Shown here: positions 43,201-54,468 of the stretch, piece by piece
Position numbering within the stretch: the first letter of the stretch is position 1
Layout of the letters: each line of letters starts with the position of its first letter
From: Paracyclopina nana
Lineage: Eukaryota > Arthropoda > Copepoda > Cyclopoida > Cyclopettidae
NCBI GenBank assembly: GCA_019096065.1
Contig: JAGUCH010000005.1
Span: forward strand, 3,348,001-3,412,000
Reading direction: 5' to 3'
Length of the DNA stretch: 64,000 nucleotides
Made by a program: the position numbers and the translations under genes
Notes under the pieces: model-generated
The model's database searches: none
Seen by the model: only the letters and a program-made list of their open reading frames with translations
What the model was told of the DNA's origin: nothing

Positions 43201-44495
43201 TAAAGTAAAACTTTCTCTCCAACCAGAACAAAGGAACCAGAAACTCCAGCCACTCCAGATGATGCTCCTGGTGGCCCAAAAGAGTTTGCATTCACGTCAC
43301 CTCCTGCAGTGAAGGTCATATCCAATGGCCTTTCAGTTGGGGGAAAGGCTTTTGTCACATTTTACATTCGGTCATCAACCACTGGACATCGAGGAGTCGT
43401 CCTTGACGTGTCTTACAAGTTGGAAGACGAGCGGAAAACTGGCTACGAATGTCACTTGAACGAGAAAATCGACCTTGAAACCATCGAGCCGTTCCTCATT
43501 GGATCTGAGCTGTTGAGGTACGGTTTTTCAATCGAAGTATACGTACTTACTTAGAACGTGTGATCATATCATTGCAGCTGCCGAAATCAAGTTAAGCTGC
43601 AAACCGCTTATAGCGATGAGCCATTCCTATTGATGCCGGAAATAAAAGCCCTTTCTAGACACGCCATTCGGATCGTGGATACTTGCGTCGAGCTCCGTTT
43701 TCCTATGAAGAGATTAGGGGCCTCACACCTGCAGCCTCAGCTACAAGGTTGTACTCTTTACCAAGAAAGCGTAGCGAATGAGTGCTACGCTCTCAAAGTG
43801 GAGCGTGGAGACTTGGCCTCTAGCAGCCTCGAAGTGCAAGACCTCACCATTGGGAAGTACGTCATTAATTGGATACGAGAGGACTACGTCGAGAACGAGG
43901 ATCAGGTTGACAAGGACTTGTGTTCATCGTCATCATATGAATTGCAGAGTGTTCAAGTTTGCCAGAGCTCATTATATGCCGAGGCCAAATTGCCAGCTTA
44001 TGCCGTTGCGCGAGTGCCCTTCGGCCTCACTTTTCGTCTTACCAACCGAACTGAGGTTGTGCTCGAATTCAACATGACAATGGAGTCGAGTGACGCATTT
44101 ATGCTGTCTGGCAACAAGCAGCAGCACTTTAAAATTTCGCCCGGATCAACGCATGATCTGAACTACGTCTTGTATCCACTATTAGCTGGTGAGGCCGTGT
44201 CGTTGCCATTGCCCAAATTAAGTTCCCTGAGGCCGGTCTTGCCTCACGATGATGTTGGAGCAACTATACAAAGGCTGTTGCCATCACACATTACTGGTAT
44301 TATTTCTTTAAAAAGGGCAATTGGTGAGCTTTTCCACAATTGTTTTTTTATTTTGCAGTTTTGCCACGGAGCCGGGGAAAATATTCGCCGAGCGCTGAAA
44401 AACGAAGTGAAGACAGGAAGGAGCCGTTCTTCACCATATGTAAGCCTGTTTTTGTCCCCGAGGTGGCTTTCGTGAAGGCTCGAAACAAATTATAA
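40242..44495 (+). CDS. TRAPPC11: Trafficking protein particle complex subunit 11 (foie gras / gryzun), complete
   Basis: Nine exons join in phase: 40242-40847, 40905-41354, 41586-41704, 41766-42247, 42304-42825, 42888-43167, 43227-43517, 43578-44296 and 44359-44495, giving 1201 residues, about the length of human TRAPPC11. The match is clear throughout: RTSYEWFIPKGMLKTNWMNK, SERATALCSACDLSARSLF, LNKTTHLYLFVRHQFKIGF, AIQTQHPGLYYQQ, YPDPDPLINEQSLEFYGQR and the C-terminal SDAFMLSGNKQQ. The foie-gras domain covers roughly residues 240-520, followed by the beta-rich gryzun part. The protein is a subunit of metazoan TRAPP III, acting in ER-to-Golgi traffic and autophagy. Introns are 51-66 nt except intron 2 (231 nt). 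The ATG is the first after an upstream stop. Confidence 0.97.
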
Positions 44496-44608: not shown

Positions 44609-47600
44609 ATGGAGTCGAAAAGGCCAGATTCATCGCGACCTCAACGTGAGCTTCCAGGTTTCAACTTTCACGAGCTTTCCTTTTATAGCACACTCTTTAA
44701 TTGAGACTTTGATCTAGTGATTATTTTTCCTGATGACCGAGACAGTAGTTTCAACGGCTTTGCTTTCTCTGATGACGACTCGACTTCGTATTACATGGGA
44801 GGCTCTCGAAAAGCAAATTCAGTTCCAAAAAATGAGCAGGCTTTTCCTAAAGGCGTCTATGTCATTTGCGTGTCCAAGCTGGGTGAAAGATTTTCGTACT
44901 ATGGAATCAAAGGTTTGCTGTGAACGATCTGTTTTAGAAAGCTAAGCATGATTATCTAATGACGTAGCTGTTGTATCGCTGTATTTACGATATTTGTTTG
45001 AGCAAGATGCAACCACGATTTCCGACGCTGAAGACCGAGCAGCAAGTACTTATCATGCATTCAATTTGATTGCTAATTTTATGCCGCTGATTGGTGCTTA
45101 CATGGCCGATACATACGTGGGAAAGTTCAAAACCATGATGTATTTGTCCATAATCAATATAATTGGCATTGCTGTATTGTCGTTTTCCTCGATTCCACCA
45201 GACAGCAACCGAGTTCAGGATCTCTCTCGACTGTAAGTTTTTGACCTCGTTTACCAAAAAAGAAACTTTAGAGTAGCAGCAGGAAAACTGTGCCCAAAAC
45301 ACGACGTGTAGAACCTAGAAAAGGCCTTGTAATGACAGCTGCTCGTCAGTCAACCAGCTGTAAGTAAGTACTAGGCTAGCACGGGTCTGATTAATCCCAG
45401 TAGAAAAAAACATGTTGGCTCATAAGTAAGGTAGCCTAATAATTTGAGCAAAGCCTTTTTTTCAAGAAAAAAATAAATACCAAGATGGAGTACAAGGTAT
45501 GATGCAATGTATGTAACTTTACCTCCGCAGGTTACTTGCATAAAAGAACATCTACATACAGAGGCAGAATACATTTCATTTGTCTCTAGGGGATTTTAGC
45601 TAGCAATTACATTTTCTTTTCTTTCAAGAGGTTTGGCCTTGACAGGGCTATTTTTGGTGGCCATTGGAAATGGCGGACTTAAGGCTTGCGACGTCGCTTT
45701 AGGCGGAGATCAATTTCGCCTGCCAGAGCAGCAGTCTCACATGGATACGTTTTTCAGCAACTTTTACATATGTGCAAATATTGGCGTCTTTTTGGCCCTT
45801 CTGATTATCCCACTGTTTCGCGACTTGGATTGCCTTGGCCTCAATGATTGCTACATTTTATCTTTTTCGATCGCAGGAGCTGTCATGGTTTTAGCCACAG
45901 GTTTGTAGCTTTTTTCTCACAGATCCACTGTTGACCCTTTTTCAAAAGGCTAACTCAAGTTTCATGCAGTGATACTGGCCTTGGGAAGGCCTTTATATAG
46001 AGTGCAAAAACCACGGCGTAATGTCATATCAGCTTTCTTCAAATGCATTTGGGTAAGCTATTCGCTTCATACTCATACACTAGACCCAAATTGCAATTTT
46101 ATTTGCAATAAAGTCGTATAGCTCTAGTGAATCGTGATTTCTGCATCACCACTCACTGCTGATGCAAATTTTGGCTTTCAGATTGGAGTGAAATGCAAAT
46201 TCGTGGCTGTTGTGGCCAGGGACAGGCACGAGTTTTCACCTCGAGATGAGCAAGACAAATGTGCCAGCAAATTTGGCGGTGAAGGCAAAAAGCATTGGCT
46301 TGATCCCGCTGCAGAAAAGTTTGGCACCAAATTTGTCCTGGGAGTAAAGGATGTTTTGAACGTGTCCGTGCTATTCCTGCTATACCCAGTTTTCTGGTCC
46401 CTTTTTGAACAGATGGTAAGTTTAGGTAATTGCAAAAACTCGGCATGCAATTCTCGTACGTATACATTTTGACTGTAAGCTTTATTGTTGCGAAAAAGAA
46501 AAGGATTCAAGCGGCTGAAAATATTGCGCCAGGCAACTTTTGAAAAGAAGCATTACAACATTTTGAGCAGCATTTGCATTGAGCGTTGATAATGCTAATT
46601 TGCAGAGACAGCCGTACGTACTACATCTCACCAAACAATGCAAACAATAGAAAAGTAGGTTTTTACGTAATTTCCATTTGCAGCGATGTCATGAAGAAAG
46701 GCTTGGAACATTATTTTCTTGCGAATTAGCAGTGCGAACAAGTAAATGCATTCTAAGTGAAATTGCTCTAATTAATAAGGATTAAATAGATACACTAGTG
46801 CAGCTTCTTTTCAATATTTTGCTGATTCCTAATCACCTTATACATGTTCGTTTTCTAGATGCAGACATTGTATGACGTCAATCCTCATTGCTGCTTTTCA
46901 CCGAAACTTGAAGCGCAGAGCATAAGGCTAGCTGAGTTTCGGGCTAATTAGCATGTTTCATAAAAAAAGTCTGAGCACGTGATGCTAACAGATTGTGACC
47001 TAAAAGCTGAGCAAGTTACCAAAACAAACTCATTTCATTAAATATTGATTGTTGTGATAGCTTGAACAAGATTAACTTTCGAAAAGTTTGACAAACGAAC
47101 AATTCTCAAATAAGTCGAAAAAGACGCGCGGGTGTGAGTAGCATCTTGAAGGAAAAAAGTTTTAATGCACTGAGAGGTTCTACCAAGTCTACTCTTATGT
47201 TCTCGATAACCACCCACTCGTGTTCATGCTTTGGAAAACTCTCTTAAAGGGTTCAAGATGGACTTTCCAAGCAACGCGAATGAATGGAAGAATAGGTAAC
47301 GTCAAGGTGCTTCCCGATCAATTACAGCTCGCCAACTCATTACTGGTCATCATATTGGTGAAAATATTTGACCTCCTAATTTACCCGTGCCTAGGTAAAT
47401 AACCATATATGGCATAATTAATAGTTTTTGAGCTATCAAGGCTATGATTTTTAGCCCGAAAGAATTTGCTGAAGAAGCCATTGCAAAAAATCGTCACAGG
47501 AGGCCTCGTTTTATCTTTGGCTTTCTTTGTCTCAGCTTACTTGGAACACGAACTGGAAGCTGATCAACCAGAGCCCATTGGGTTTCAAGAATCACACATC

Positions 47601-50600
47601 ACAATTGTGAATGGGGTTAAAGATTGTAGGGTTCATGTGACGTTAGAAAACGCAAGCTATGCGGAGAACTTTACTTTTGACAAGACACAGCACACCGATA
47701 CATTTGACACTAAATTCCAAATGAATGAGACGTCAGAGCTAAAGATTTCAGCAACGAAGTTCTGCAAAAATTCGCCCACGATGCCAACTGTCAGTACTAC
47801 TTTCTTGGTTGATCCAGGAGTGGTTAGTTGAGAAGAAATATGTAAAAATTGGGATTAAGTTATGAATTTTCAGAAAAAGTCGCTGTACCTATGGAGTGAA
47901 ATGGAAAATGTAGGAGATTTGCATATACATGTGAGCGAATTTAATGATTGCATGAAGAAGTCTGACATGGGTGATCCATATGTGAGGTAAGGAATTTTAA
48001 TGCTACTCTTATCCAACTACAAAAGTTCATGTAAAAGCCACAAGATGCCAAAACGGCTTAAACTTCTCAACTAAATTATTAATTCATTGTCATGAGAAAA
48101 AGTTGAAAAGTTGTATAATGCAATTTATATCGTTGCTCAATATTTGAGTATCTCACAGGCTGGTTTATGCCTTTGCCAAAATACATGGATTAATTGAGAA
48201 CAATTCAGCTGAATTAAGAGTTGAAATTCGAAGCCTGTCCAAATTTGAACTTTTGGCTGATTTTTGGCTCAACTTGGAAAACTCATCGGGAGACCAAAAT
48301 GTGACTTACATCGACGATGCAGGAAGGTATCAATGTTACTACTACAAGAAAAATAATAGGCAAATGAAGTATTCTGGCTCCTAAAGGGTTCAAGTTTGCA
48401 TAAAAATTGCGAATGGCACGAGCCGCTGCGAGACCGAATTTATGAAACCCAAATACCACGAACTGAAGCAGGGAGGAGGCTACAACTTTTTTATCACGCT
48501 AATTGACGAGCAGAATTTCCAAGTTGTCGTGGACGAAGTTTTGCCTCCAAATAGCATCCACATTTTTTGGCAATTACCTCAATACTTTCTTCTAACAGCT
48601 GGCGAAGTTATGTTTTGCATTCCAAACATCCAATTTGCCTACACTCAAGTAAGTATTTTTCGATAATGTAGACCAGAGACTTTCAATATAAGTCTCTGAT
48701 GTAGACGAGCAGAAATGTTCATCCGCTCTACTTTTTTCGCTGCTTTCCTGTCTTACCTTTTGATTAGCTTCCACGAATTTCAGATTTTCAATGAGCTCAC
48801 AAGCCATTTTTGCCACTAACTTAGCTGTCGTAGACTCGTAGCCTACAGGAACTGGTGTTATGTCTTGGGACTAGGGTTGACTAAAGCAATAAAAACTTTG
48901 TTGGGACCCTTCTCAATTATAGACCTTTAAAATGGTTTAGTCATGCCTAGCAAGCCGGCTTTACTTGCGATGATAAAGCTCGTATCAATGCTAGGGTTGA
49001 CTAAACAGTAAACCTAGGTAGTTTTAGTTTAGCTAATCAACAATGATTTAAAGGATGGATCTAGCCGTTGTGGATGAGCTCAGTGCAAAAGCAATAACTG
49101 CATTGCATACCTAGAAACCAAATACCTTTTTGTAAAAATGGCCATTTTTATTTGAAACCTTTCATAATTCAAAGAACACTAGAGAGAGCACCTCATGAAT
49201 TAGGGCTCACAATTTCAGTACAGCGAGGATTTTAAAATTTGGGGCAGTCCTCAACTGAAGGGGCACATTGAGATGGCATGGGGCATTCAGTATTGGGGTC
49301 AGGGGCGCATAAGACCATTTCTGGTGGGCAATTAGCCGGGCAATGAGCGGGACATTCTTTTCCATCTGGTCCAGGCGCTGTGAAAAATTGTTGGTGAAGT
49401 CTTTGCCTCATAAACTATACATATAGAGTCCTTACTTGTTCGTGCAATGCAGTAATCTCCAAGGTAGCAGCCATTTTGATCTGTTCCTTTAGAGCATGGC
49501 ATCTCAAGGGGTCCACATTGAGCAGGGCACCCTAGGGCAGGGCAATCATTACCATCCAAGCCTTGAACATCTATGATTTGATAAAGAAATCAGTAAAAGT
49601 ATATTATGTTCTTTTTAAGAATACCAAGATGCTACTAACTTGAGAGTGGAAGGCAAAAATCTGGGGAAGGGCATCCATTGGGAGTTTTTGGTCCTGGGCA
49701 AGTTAAAGAATTGGGCCCACAGTTAGTGGGGCAAAAAGGAGGACATTGACCACCTGAAAGTGTATCATCATCAATTTTGGCTGAATCAGAATTCAAGATA
49801 CCATTAGCTATTACTGGCATTTCTGTCCACGCAAAAATCTGCCGTTGGACATCCATCATTGCCAATTCCACCATAGCATTGCATCTGTTCAGCTGAATTG
49901 CAGTGCACAGGACATAAACCTGGGCAAACTGACCCATCATCTTTGATGGCTGCAAATGAGTTTTTTTCATCTTTTTATTTCGATTAGAGGAAAAGGAGTT
50001 AAGCTAACTCACGCCCATTTGTTGGTGTACAGAAATCAGGCATGGCACATCCCCTATGGTCTTTGCCACCAGCACAAGTTTGAAAACCATTGGAGCAGGT
50101 AGTTGGGCAGATAGGTGGGCATTCTCCATCTGAATTCACAGAAAAATGGTCAAAACAATTTATCGCGTAAAATGGAATCTTAGTGAAATACTTATATCAA
50201 TTGGCAAGCAAGTGTTTTCGATAGGACACCCTTCAGGGCTAACCCCTCCACAAGTTAATTCATTGCTGCCACATTCTTTTGGGCACACAGCTGGGCAAAA
50301 TGATCCATCTGACTTGACGGCTGGAAAAGGACATTTAATTGGCATCTTAGAAACATTTTAAGAACCTGATATTGCTTACGCCCTTTGTTAGGAATACAGA
50401 TGTCTGGTCTAGGACAACCATTTTGGTCTTCTCCACCTGAACAGACCATTTGGTCTTCTCCACAAGCAACAGGGCAAAAAGCTAAGCACTCCGAGCCGTC
50501 CAATCCAGTCATCCCACTTTTGCTTGGAACGCATACATCTGGAATTTTACATCCACTCTTGTCTGTTCCCCTGGCGCAGAAAAGCTCATCTGGTCCACAA

Positions 50601-52341
50601 CTAACAGGGCACTGAGGGTTAGGACAGTCCTTGCCTGTGAAGTCTTGATCCGTTGGGAAACAAAAATCAGGCATGGGACAATCACTACTCAAATCTTTTG
50701 GTCCAGGGCACTTCATCATTCCTAGTCCACAATCAGTGGAACAAAAATTTGAGCAGTTCCCATCTAAAAAAAGACAAAGCCTCTTTTACCATCTTTTAAA
50801 GAATTCCTTGTACTGATTTCACAATTGTTCAATTTGTAGAAATTAGATACTTTAAGCCTCTCGATTAAATGTCCCTCATTTTCCACCGTAAAATTACCAC
50901 GTTCGCAGGCTCGGGCTAGTAAAGTTTCACTCGTATTTAAAATCCTCTCATAGCTATTGAACAGCCCTGTTTTTTGTTCCCTATCGCGATATACAAATAT
51001 CCAGAATGCGGCACGGAAAATGCACTCAGTGGGCTGCTCTTAAGAAGTAAATAAATGGGCTGATTTGGCTGGAGTGCCGTTGCAATTTCGGAGCCGCGCT
51101 CTGTATATTACAGCCCCGTTTTATGTTTACGCGCTAGAAGTAAATAACTATTTAATACTGATTTTTGCTGGGATACAGTAGTCCGGCTGTTTGCAACCAA
51201 TTGCGTCAATCCCTCCATAGCAAACCATTTCAGTTTCAGAGCACTGAATTGGGTCCTTGATTTCTGGGCATGGATTATTTTGCCCCAAAGTTAAGGGGAA
51301 GAAAAGTATGGCAAGCACACAAGCTGTTGTGTCAACCTTCATGATCAATTAGAGATTAAGCTTCACTGTTGAGCAACAAGGCTTTATATAATGGCGTCGG
51401 TCTGGGTCACTTTGGGGGAATCCTGCCAAAAAAGCATTTTCGGTTTCTTTGTATGGAAAATATTGCTTTTCTGGGATCATCCGTGTGGGCTTGATATTTG
51501 CACTTAGCAACAAGCCTTTTGTTAGGAATGGTTGTTTCCACAGTGCACTCTTGCATAGAAGAAACATTTTCCTCTCGAACAAGTGTCTCGTCATCTATTG
51601 TCATTCAGATGGGCAAAAATGAAAGCCACTCCCTATAATCGCTTGATCGCTTATCTATTATGCATGCACATGTTATTTCTTCAGTAATTGAGTATAACAA
51701 ATGTTTTACCTTTTTTGTTACATTCGTACTGCATTCTTGCACACACATTTTATTCAATAGAAACTTATTCAGAAAACTGTGAGCACTCTTATTTATAGGC
51801 AAATCATGAGTGTTCACAAATCGCCTTGATCTGACTAAAAACTGCAAATTATCAACTTAGATCTTGCACTTTGAAAGGTATGCGCGATGGTCTGTGCTTG
51901 TAACCATGATGTTTGTGTTTCAGTGTTTATTTGAAGGCTTTTGAGTGGAAATACTTGCTTTTCTTTCTCTTAAAAGTTTGATAACTTTTACTTTGAAGTG
52001 TTCTCCATTTTTCAGGCACATTTTACCTTTTTTTGCAGGCACCAAGAAGCATGAAATCTGTGGTTCAGGCCCTGTATCGTCTGACTCTTACGTTAGGCAA
52101 CCTTATTGATTTGCTGGTGATGGCGGCCTCTTCAAAACTGCTGAAAAGTCAAAAAATGGAATTTCTGTTTTTTGCACTTTTGATGCTCGTCGATGTGGCC
52201 CTTTTGTCATACATGGCAACAAAGTACACGTACAAAGAAGAACGAACGGAAATGGAAGCTAATGAGGAGGATGACGATGATAGCTGCTATGAAACGAGCA
52301 AAAAATCCAACATTATAATTGCCATAAACTCTCCAACATAA
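44609..52341 (+). CDS. Proton-coupled oligopeptide transporter, SLC15 (PepT) family, complete
   Basis: Twelve exons join in phase: 44609-44645, 44718-44912, 44968-45232, 45629-45900, 45970-46052, 46182-46415, 47250-47394, 47455-47822, 47874-47986, 48159-48326, 48387-48648 and 52039-52341, giving 814 residues. Family motifs are clear: GERFSYYGIKAVVSLYL in the first membrane helix, GAYMADTYVGKFKTM, GGLKACDVALGGDQF, HWLDPAAEKF, SLFEQMGSRWTFQATRMNG, and QLPQYFLLTAGEVMFC before the last helices. A large extracellular domain between helices 9 and 10 is present, as in animal PepT1/2. It has several N-glycosylation sites. The tail is acidic. The family imports di- and tripeptides with protons across the plasma membrane. 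The last intron (3390 nt) contains a complete antisense gene, and exon 1 codes for only 12 residues. Confidence 0.96.
48871..49005. repeat. Pair of direct repeats in the SLC15 last intron
   Basis: The word ctagggttgactaaa occurs at 48871-48885 and 48991-49005. The surrounding DNA is non-coding. Related gtttagtttaac words occur in the MITE at 55908-56080, but the link is weak. Confidence 0.4.
49232..51342 (-). CDS. Secreted protein of ten tandem cysteine modules, nested in SLC15 intron
   Basis: Eight exons join in phase: 51342-51159, 50763-50380, 50320-50192, 50129-50013, 49949-49815, 49753-49640, 49561-49436 and 49377-49232, giving 444 residues. A signal peptide (MKVDTTACVLAILFFPLTLG) is followed by ten copies of a ~40-residue module. 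The consensus runs CPxxCPxxCGxxxxxC, then GGxDxxGCPxPDxCIP. All seven introns are phase 1 and fall between modules. Exons 3-8 each encode one module, exon 2 encodes three, and exon 1 a slightly shorter first one. The modules have 5-6 cysteines, probably forming disulphides. I recall similar modules in uncharacterised arthropod secreted proteins but cannot name a function. A TATA box lies ~40 nt upstream of the ATG. Confidence 0.88.
50900..50965. repeat. Fragment of the foldback-element family
   Basis: The word gcaggctcgggctagtaaag is shared with the loop of the hairpin at 55130-55305, followed in both by a ctcg...ttttaaaatcctc-like stretch. It lies in intron 1 of the nested cysteine-module gene. 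No inverted partner is obvious here, so it seems to be a truncated copy. Confidence 0.6.
51381..51390 (-). promoter_or_regulatory. TATA box of the cysteine-module gene
   Basis: TATATAAAGC on the minus strand, 39 nt before the ATG. With the usual ~30-nt spacing, transcription would start near TCAACAGTG, leaving a leader of under 20 nt. The gene therefore has its own promoter inside the SLC15 intron. Confidence 0.6.
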
Positions 52342-53352: not shown

Positions 53353-54468
53353 CTCCCGCACCTCAGAGTGACTCCCGCACCTTGGAGGAGCGACTCCCGC
53401 ACCCGACAGCGTCTCCCGCACCCGGCAGCGTCTCCCGCACCCGGCAGCGTCTCCCGCACCCGGCAGCGTCTCCCGCACCCGGCAGCGTCTCCCACACCCG
53501 GCAGCGTCTCCCGCCCCCCGGCAGTGTCCCTCTCCAACACCCGGCAACGTCTTTAACTGCAAATTGAGGCTGCCCAAGACCAAGACAGCAATTTGAGGCT
53601 CCCGCTCCCGGCAGCGTCTCCCGGACCCGGCAGCGTCTTCCGCCCCTGGCAGCGTCTCCCGCACCCAGCAGTGTCTTCCGCCCCTGGCAGCGTCTCCCGC
53701 ACCCGGCAGCGTCTTCCGCCCCTGGCAGCGTCTCCCGCACCCGCCAGCGTCTCCAGCACCCGGCAGCGTCTCCCGCTCCTGGTAGTGTCTCCCGCACCCG
53801 GCAGCGTCTCCCGCCCCGGGCAGCGTCTCCCGCACCCGGCAGTGTCTTCCTCCCCTGGCAGCGTCTCACGCACCCGGCAGCGACTTCCGCCCCTGGCAGC
53901 GTCTCCCGCACCCGGCAGCGTCTCCCGCACCTGGCAGCGTCTCCCGCACCCGGCAGCGTCTCCCGCTCCCGGCAGTGTCTCCCGGTCCCGGCAACGTCTT
54001 CCGCCCCTGGCAGCGTCTCCCGCACCCGGCAGTGTCTTCCGCCCCTGGCAGCGTCTCCCGCACCCGGCAGCGTCTTCCGCCCCTGGCAGCGTCTCCTGCA
54101 CCCGGCAGCGTCTCCTGCACCCGGCAGCGGCTCCCGCACCCGGCAGCGGCTCCCGCACCCGGCAGCGTCTCCCGCACCCAGCAGCGTCTCCCACACCCGG
54201 TAGCGTCTTTATATTCAAATTGAGGCTGCTCAAGACCAAGACGGCAATTTGAAGCTCCCGCACCCAGCAGCGTCTCCCGCCCCCGGCAGCGTCTCCACAC
54301 CCGGCAGTGTCTCCACACCAAGCAGTGTCTCCACACCCGGCAGCATCTTTAACTGCAAATTGAGGCTGCCCAAGAACAAGACGGCAATTTGAGGCTCCCG
54401 CCCCCGGCTGTGTCTCCCGCACCCGGCAGCGTCTCCCGCACTTGGCAGCGTCTCCCGCACATTGTGGC
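53353..54468. repeat. GC-rich minisatellite, ~18-nt unit, about 50 copies
   Basis: Unit close to ctcccgcacccggcagcgt, with variants such as ttccgcccctggcagcgt. The array is interrupted three times by a ~45-nt non-repeat block (caaattgaggctgcccaaga and following bases) near 53560, 54215 and 54355, giving a higher-order structure. Composition is far more GC-rich than the surroundings. Because 18 is a multiple of three, long open frames appear on both strands; these are repeat artefacts. Confidence 0.95.

Follow-up and report, generated by a model that had tools for sequence, protein, structure and literature searches.

A nested gene of tandem cysteine modules in the genome of a probable copepod, possibly coding for a secreted structural protein

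What kind of protein is encoded by a gene of repeated cysteine modules that lies within the intron of another gene, and how did its repeats come about? The window, by which we mean the whole analysed stretch of 64,000 nucleotides, contains on the minus strand of 49232-51342 an uninterrupted frame of 447 residues, which according to a gene model made from the sequence is spread over eight exons (Table 1). An eight-exon gene had been proposed here in an earlier note, and the model agrees with it; all seven introns have GT-AG borders. Six of the introns are 58-69 bp long and the first one has 395 bp. As the earlier note had it, all of them are in phase 1 and are placed between modules (7/7). The chance that seven out of seven introns share one phase is about (1/3)^7 by a hand estimate that assumes equal phase frequencies. 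The further claim of one exon per module holds for seven of the eight exons and fails for exon 2, which carries three modules. A 27-bp repeat (two copies, 86% matches) is found within exon 2 at 50417-50472.

Table 1. Features of the nested gene and of its host gene, in positions of the window.
Feature	Position	Strand	Basis
Recognised part of the SLC15/POT host gene	44952..52338	+	PF00854 matches
Last intron of the SLC15/POT host gene, phase 0	48652..52038	+	Frame join and POT profile
TATA-like box TATATAAA upstream of the ATG (putative)	51383..51390	-	Read from the sequence
Exon 1: start codon, signal-peptide-like stretch, first module	51159..51342	-	Profile match of 31.2 bits; signal judged by eye
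Exon 2: modules 2, 3 and 4	50380..50763	-	Gene model and module profile
Exon 3: module 5	50192..50320	-	Gene model and module profile
Exon 4: module 6, of the modules the nearest to Antistasin	50013..50129	-	Gene model and module profile; 18.9 bits (cut-off 21.2)
Exon 5: module 7	49815..49949	-	Gene model and module profile
Exon 6: module 8	49640..49753	-	Gene model and module profile
Exon 7: module 9	49436..49570	-	Gene model and module profile
Exon 8: module 10, C-terminal tail with one lone cysteine, stop codon	49232..49377	-	Gene model and module profile
AATAAA, polyadenylation-signal-like (putative)	49147..49152	-	Read from the sequence

The gene had also been credited with a TATA box of its own, and a TATA-like element is indeed present, with the last base of TATATAAA 41 nt upstream of the first base of the ATG. 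The AATAAA lies 80 nt past the stop codon. The protein starts with a hydrophobic N-terminal leader which reads, by eye, like a signal, and 61 of its 447 residues are cysteines. These are arranged in modules of about 40 residues with the spacing C-x3-C-x3-C-x6-C-x8-C-x5-C. Ten such modules had been counted, and the same number of matches is found by a module profile which was built from 29 sequences and includes nine of the gene's ten modules, not the first. The lowest scores within the gene belong to the first module, which has five cysteines instead of six (the second is missing), and to the last one (33.1 bits).

These two low scores could be taken as the marks of a decayed or unexpressed gene copy. 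We regard this as very improbable, given the intact frame, the seven regular introns and the two putative signals upstream and downstream. The codons argue against it as well. When the nine regular modules are compared with each other, positions 1 and 2 of the cysteine codons never differ, and position 3 differs in 49% of the comparisons; at the other aligned codon positions of the same modules the rates of difference are 56, 51 and 63% (positions 1, 2 and 3). Selection on the protein is plain from this restriction of the variation to the third position, which tells of past selection and not of present use. In addition, paralogs elsewhere in the genome match the protein with E-values down to 2.6e-14. 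Judged from its sequence the gene thus looks intact and carries all marks of a real gene.

The genome (91.95 Mb in 10 contigs) was searched with three protein queries, and the locus counts given here are lower bounds. At least seven loci belong to the family: the nested gene, L019 and L021 (C1), L023 (C6), L020 (C7), L022 (C3) and L027 (C9). Two architectures can be distinguished, since four loci, among them the partly modelled L023, have phase-1 introns between the modules, and three carry most of their modules in one long exon. The shortest array, in L021, has four modules; the longest, in L022, has about twenty or more, and its two module frames contain 145 cysteines. L021 has five exons and phase-1 introns throughout (4/4), so that exons with the symmetric phases 1-1 are seen there and in the nested gene (7/7) and are not seen in L020, L022 and L027. 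In L019 the junctions between modules are in phase 1, and four modules share one exon (partly read by eye). In L020, L022 and L027 an intron near the N-terminus, between the fourth and fifth cysteine and therefore inside a module, appears to be in phase 0, and a second intron of this kind lies further on in L022 (both partly by eye). The gaps between modules are nearly fixed in the long arrays, with 6-9 residues in 44 of 47 cases.

It had been suggested that modules of the nested gene can be duplicated or lost by exon shuffling. No shuffling is visible in this gene. Its introns have no mutual similarity at E up to 0.1, and a recent exon duplication, which was looked for in the introns and in the module comparisons, was not seen. 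The best partners of the nine regular modules are found in a paralog in five cases and in the gene itself in four, and on this sequence evidence the module duplications look old. Nor is growth exon by exon supported by L020, L022 and L027, where most modules share one long exon and phase-0 introns fall inside a module. L027 contains within its exon a near-exact duplicate of a two-module unit. Together with the difference between the loci with phase-1 introns and those with long exons, this indicates that the arrays of the family grew in more than one way.

Some other observations were made at these loci. Around the L027 paralog there are open frames of 1045 to 1421 residues (L038, L027:1051-4185 and L039; G000 C9). 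Tandem LNR-like repeats after a hydrophobic stretch, recognised by eye, form an apparently separate gene which adjoins the L019 paralog (L019:6163-7001, G000 C1). LNR domains are numerous in the whole genome, with at least 38 matches over the cut-off when 150 of 437 candidates were scored, and they suggest that the animal is an Oithona-like copepod. Two of the three contig starts that were read carry telomere-like CCTAA repeats, and the third carries another repeat.

Regarding the position of the gene, the earlier note placed it as a whole, in antisense direction, inside the last intron of a peptide transporter, and the profile of that family supports this. POT (PF00854) matches six of eight successive plus-strand frames from 44760 on, the first of the matches (44952-45233) being weak (E 0.023). 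On its own the frame that ends at 48651 reaches 15.1 bits; once the frame beginning at 52039 is added, the score rises to 39.5 bits, and the joined sequence (48651|52039) covers positions 316-381 of the 392 positions of the profile (E 4.4e-10). The last exon of the host alone has no PF00854 match. The whole gene thus lies within the intron of another one, as is characteristic of nested intronic genes. For other members of the family a partial scan, covering ten ORFs within or next to the regions of five paralogs, gave no sign of nesting. L021 sits between two ORFs of the sodium channel family on different strands, and the other paralogs in these five regions (the neighbours of L027 lie outside the scan) have no single family on both sides. 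We consider the nested position a curiosity and not the main point. Upstream of the transporter, a plus-strand frame at 43630-44472 of the window matches Gryzun (E 2e-08), a family that acts in Golgi trafficking. A 19-bp tandem repeat lies on the downstream side of the host gene at 53353-53500, with some 6 to 8 copies in the scanned part, and two overlapping ORFs there match no Pfam family at E up to 0.001.

The module had been described as one of no familiar function, and the libraries that were searched (Pfam, NCBIfam and PDB sequences) name no domain for it, although Antistasin comes within 2.3 bits of its cut-off in one module of the nested gene. No Pfam or NCBIfam family exceeds its cut-off for the module, the PDB sequences give no match to the module protein, and a fold search gave no convincing or significant match. 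Models of viral structures yielded 112 matches at E up to 10 and none at 0.001. Collections of non-animal sequences, in which an absence means little, gave eight pattern matches in viral contigs and 25 in bacterial and archaeal genomes, none of them confirmed, and no relative in a tblastn search of phages. The module is therefore not named in the libraries searched; the literature was looked at by topic, not by module sequence. C_tripleX (PF02363) resembles the start of the module, C-x3-C-x3-C, and matches one of 29 single modules (E 0.053), but none of six longer family sequences. LNR (PF00066) matches the modules neither singly nor in the longer sequences.

The nearest family, Antistasin (PF02822), leads to the main rival explanation, a multi-headed secreted protease inhibitor in which the loop of each module would plug a serine protease, as in antistasin- or Kazal-type arrays. 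When modules were scanned singly, three of 29 matched at E up to 1. The strongest of these matches, with E 0.0022 and 18.9 bits against 21.2, comes from module 6 of the nested gene; it is nearly at the cut-off and makes this explanation the more alive. The other two, from L020, score 13.7 and 12.2 bits. Trypsins and protease inhibitors are moreover listed among the male-enriched genes of O. nana (PMC8301441), which counts only if the animal is an Oithona. Still, no module reaches the cut-off, and all three matches cover positions 1 to 21 or 22 of the 26 profile positions, so that the last five are never matched. Six longer family sequences, searched at E up to 5, have no match. The genome has none at E up to 1, in a search without a positive control, since its 14 control genomes also stayed without a match over the cut-off. 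The module alignment also has no conserved basic residue. Taken together, an inhibitor seems unlikely.

We tentatively prefer a disulfide-braced secreted structural protein, to which we give a little less than an even chance. Each module of about 40 residues would be a small unit braced by disulfides, and ten of them in a row would form a rod or a string of beads. If expressed and secreted, the chain could help to build a material outside the cells, for instance mucus, the lining of the gut or the cement of egg sacs. The paralog L019 points in this direction. Directly 3' of its modules there is a mucin-like frame of 427 residues with 30% Thr and 20% Ser (L019:4337-5617, G000 C1). By eye, from frames and splice sites only, the modules can be joined in frame to it by a phase-1 intron, so that they may run on into this Ser/Thr-rich sequence. 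The mucin-like frame, the regularity of the long arrays and the content of cysteine point to structural material outside the cell. A frame containing cysteines follows the Ser/Thr-rich one in L019; at E up to 0.01 it is matched nowhere else in the genome.

Against a structural rod counts the variable gap between modules in the class of the nested gene, which has 6 to 15 residues and one gap of 31 that reads through an intron. Against a structural role in general it counts that no fold match supports a function and that Pfam, searched with the full protein up to an E-value of 5, finds neither EGF nor TSP1 domains, which are present in cement proteins of the salmon louse. A secreted bioactive or defence protein, be it antimicrobial, lectin-like or a binder that gains avidity by repetition as in SCREPs, would agree with the general description given for secreted cysteine-rich repeat proteins (PMC6262176). 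We hold such a function to be quite improbable, as there is neither a sequence match nor a significant fold match to any protein of that kind, and long arrays next to a mucin-like frame are better suited to structure.

A detail of the structural protein concerns its end. A lone cysteine follows 6-8 residues past the last module in five of seven loci (nested gene, L021, L020, L022 and L027); L019 is without it, and the end of L023 falls outside that count. Situated at the site of the first cysteine of a next module, it may form a bond with the last module or connect one chain to another. It is also conceivable, if doubtful, that the modules interlock, each first cysteine pairing with the preceding module, and that the chain is one covalent rod with the lone cysteine at its end. 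The disulfide unit would then be shifted relative to the exon, and the phase-1 introns would cut inside the unit. In both structure models confidence is lowest for the block that contains the first cysteine, at 66 in one (others 68-91) and 53 in the other (others 65-78), the second model being weak as a whole (pLDDT 68.3). Fraying at the chain end would explain this low confidence in the models as well. Joint cysteine losses in degenerate modules were inspected by eye for the disulfide pairing; the losses seen (first and fifth, first and second, third and fourth) disagree with each other, and no pairing was drawn from them.

The repeat architecture and the nesting are both of known kinds. What is added to the secreted repeat proteins of an animal that is probably a planktonic copepod is a module without a name in the searched libraries, in two contrasting architectures within one genome. 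Should its role be structural, it is a candidate component of the mucus, linings or egg sacs of very abundant animals. For the nesting, intronic genes are reported to make up about 6% of fly genes, and Drosophila 2mit lies in an intron of timeless2 in opposite direction (PMC3786989). The gene described here is likewise protein-coding, intronic and oppositely oriented, although both the protein and the host gene are unrelated to that pair.

With its ten modules the protein is, like the SCREPs, a cysteine-rich tandem domain repeat, and by its leader, as read by eye, it may also be secreted. The SCREPs are a descriptive class and not a homologous family; the characterised cases with which that source opens are mostly two-domain spider toxins (PMC6262176). 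An expanded family with cysteine modules of about 40 residues, many of its members predicted to be secreted, is also known from the LNR-domain proteins of Oithona nana, a species perhaps of the same genus, whose LNR expansion its authors call unique in metazoans (PMC8301441). LNR is another, named domain which the modules of the nested gene do not match. The nearest analogy is found in the salmon louse, for which the following is described in PMC6947537. FCGMB1 has 708 residues, 11.7% cysteine and no conserved domain. The female cement gland secreted proteins FCGS1-6 are modular, contain 11-16% cysteine and are parts of the egg-string cement, and their knock-downs lead to missing or deformed egg strings. 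They are built of EGF and TSP1 domains; neither is found by Pfam in the protein of the nested gene, which therefore does not belong to the FCGS family. Common to both are the cysteine content and the tandem modules and, as far as predicted here, the origin from a copepod, the disulfides, secretion and a structural role.
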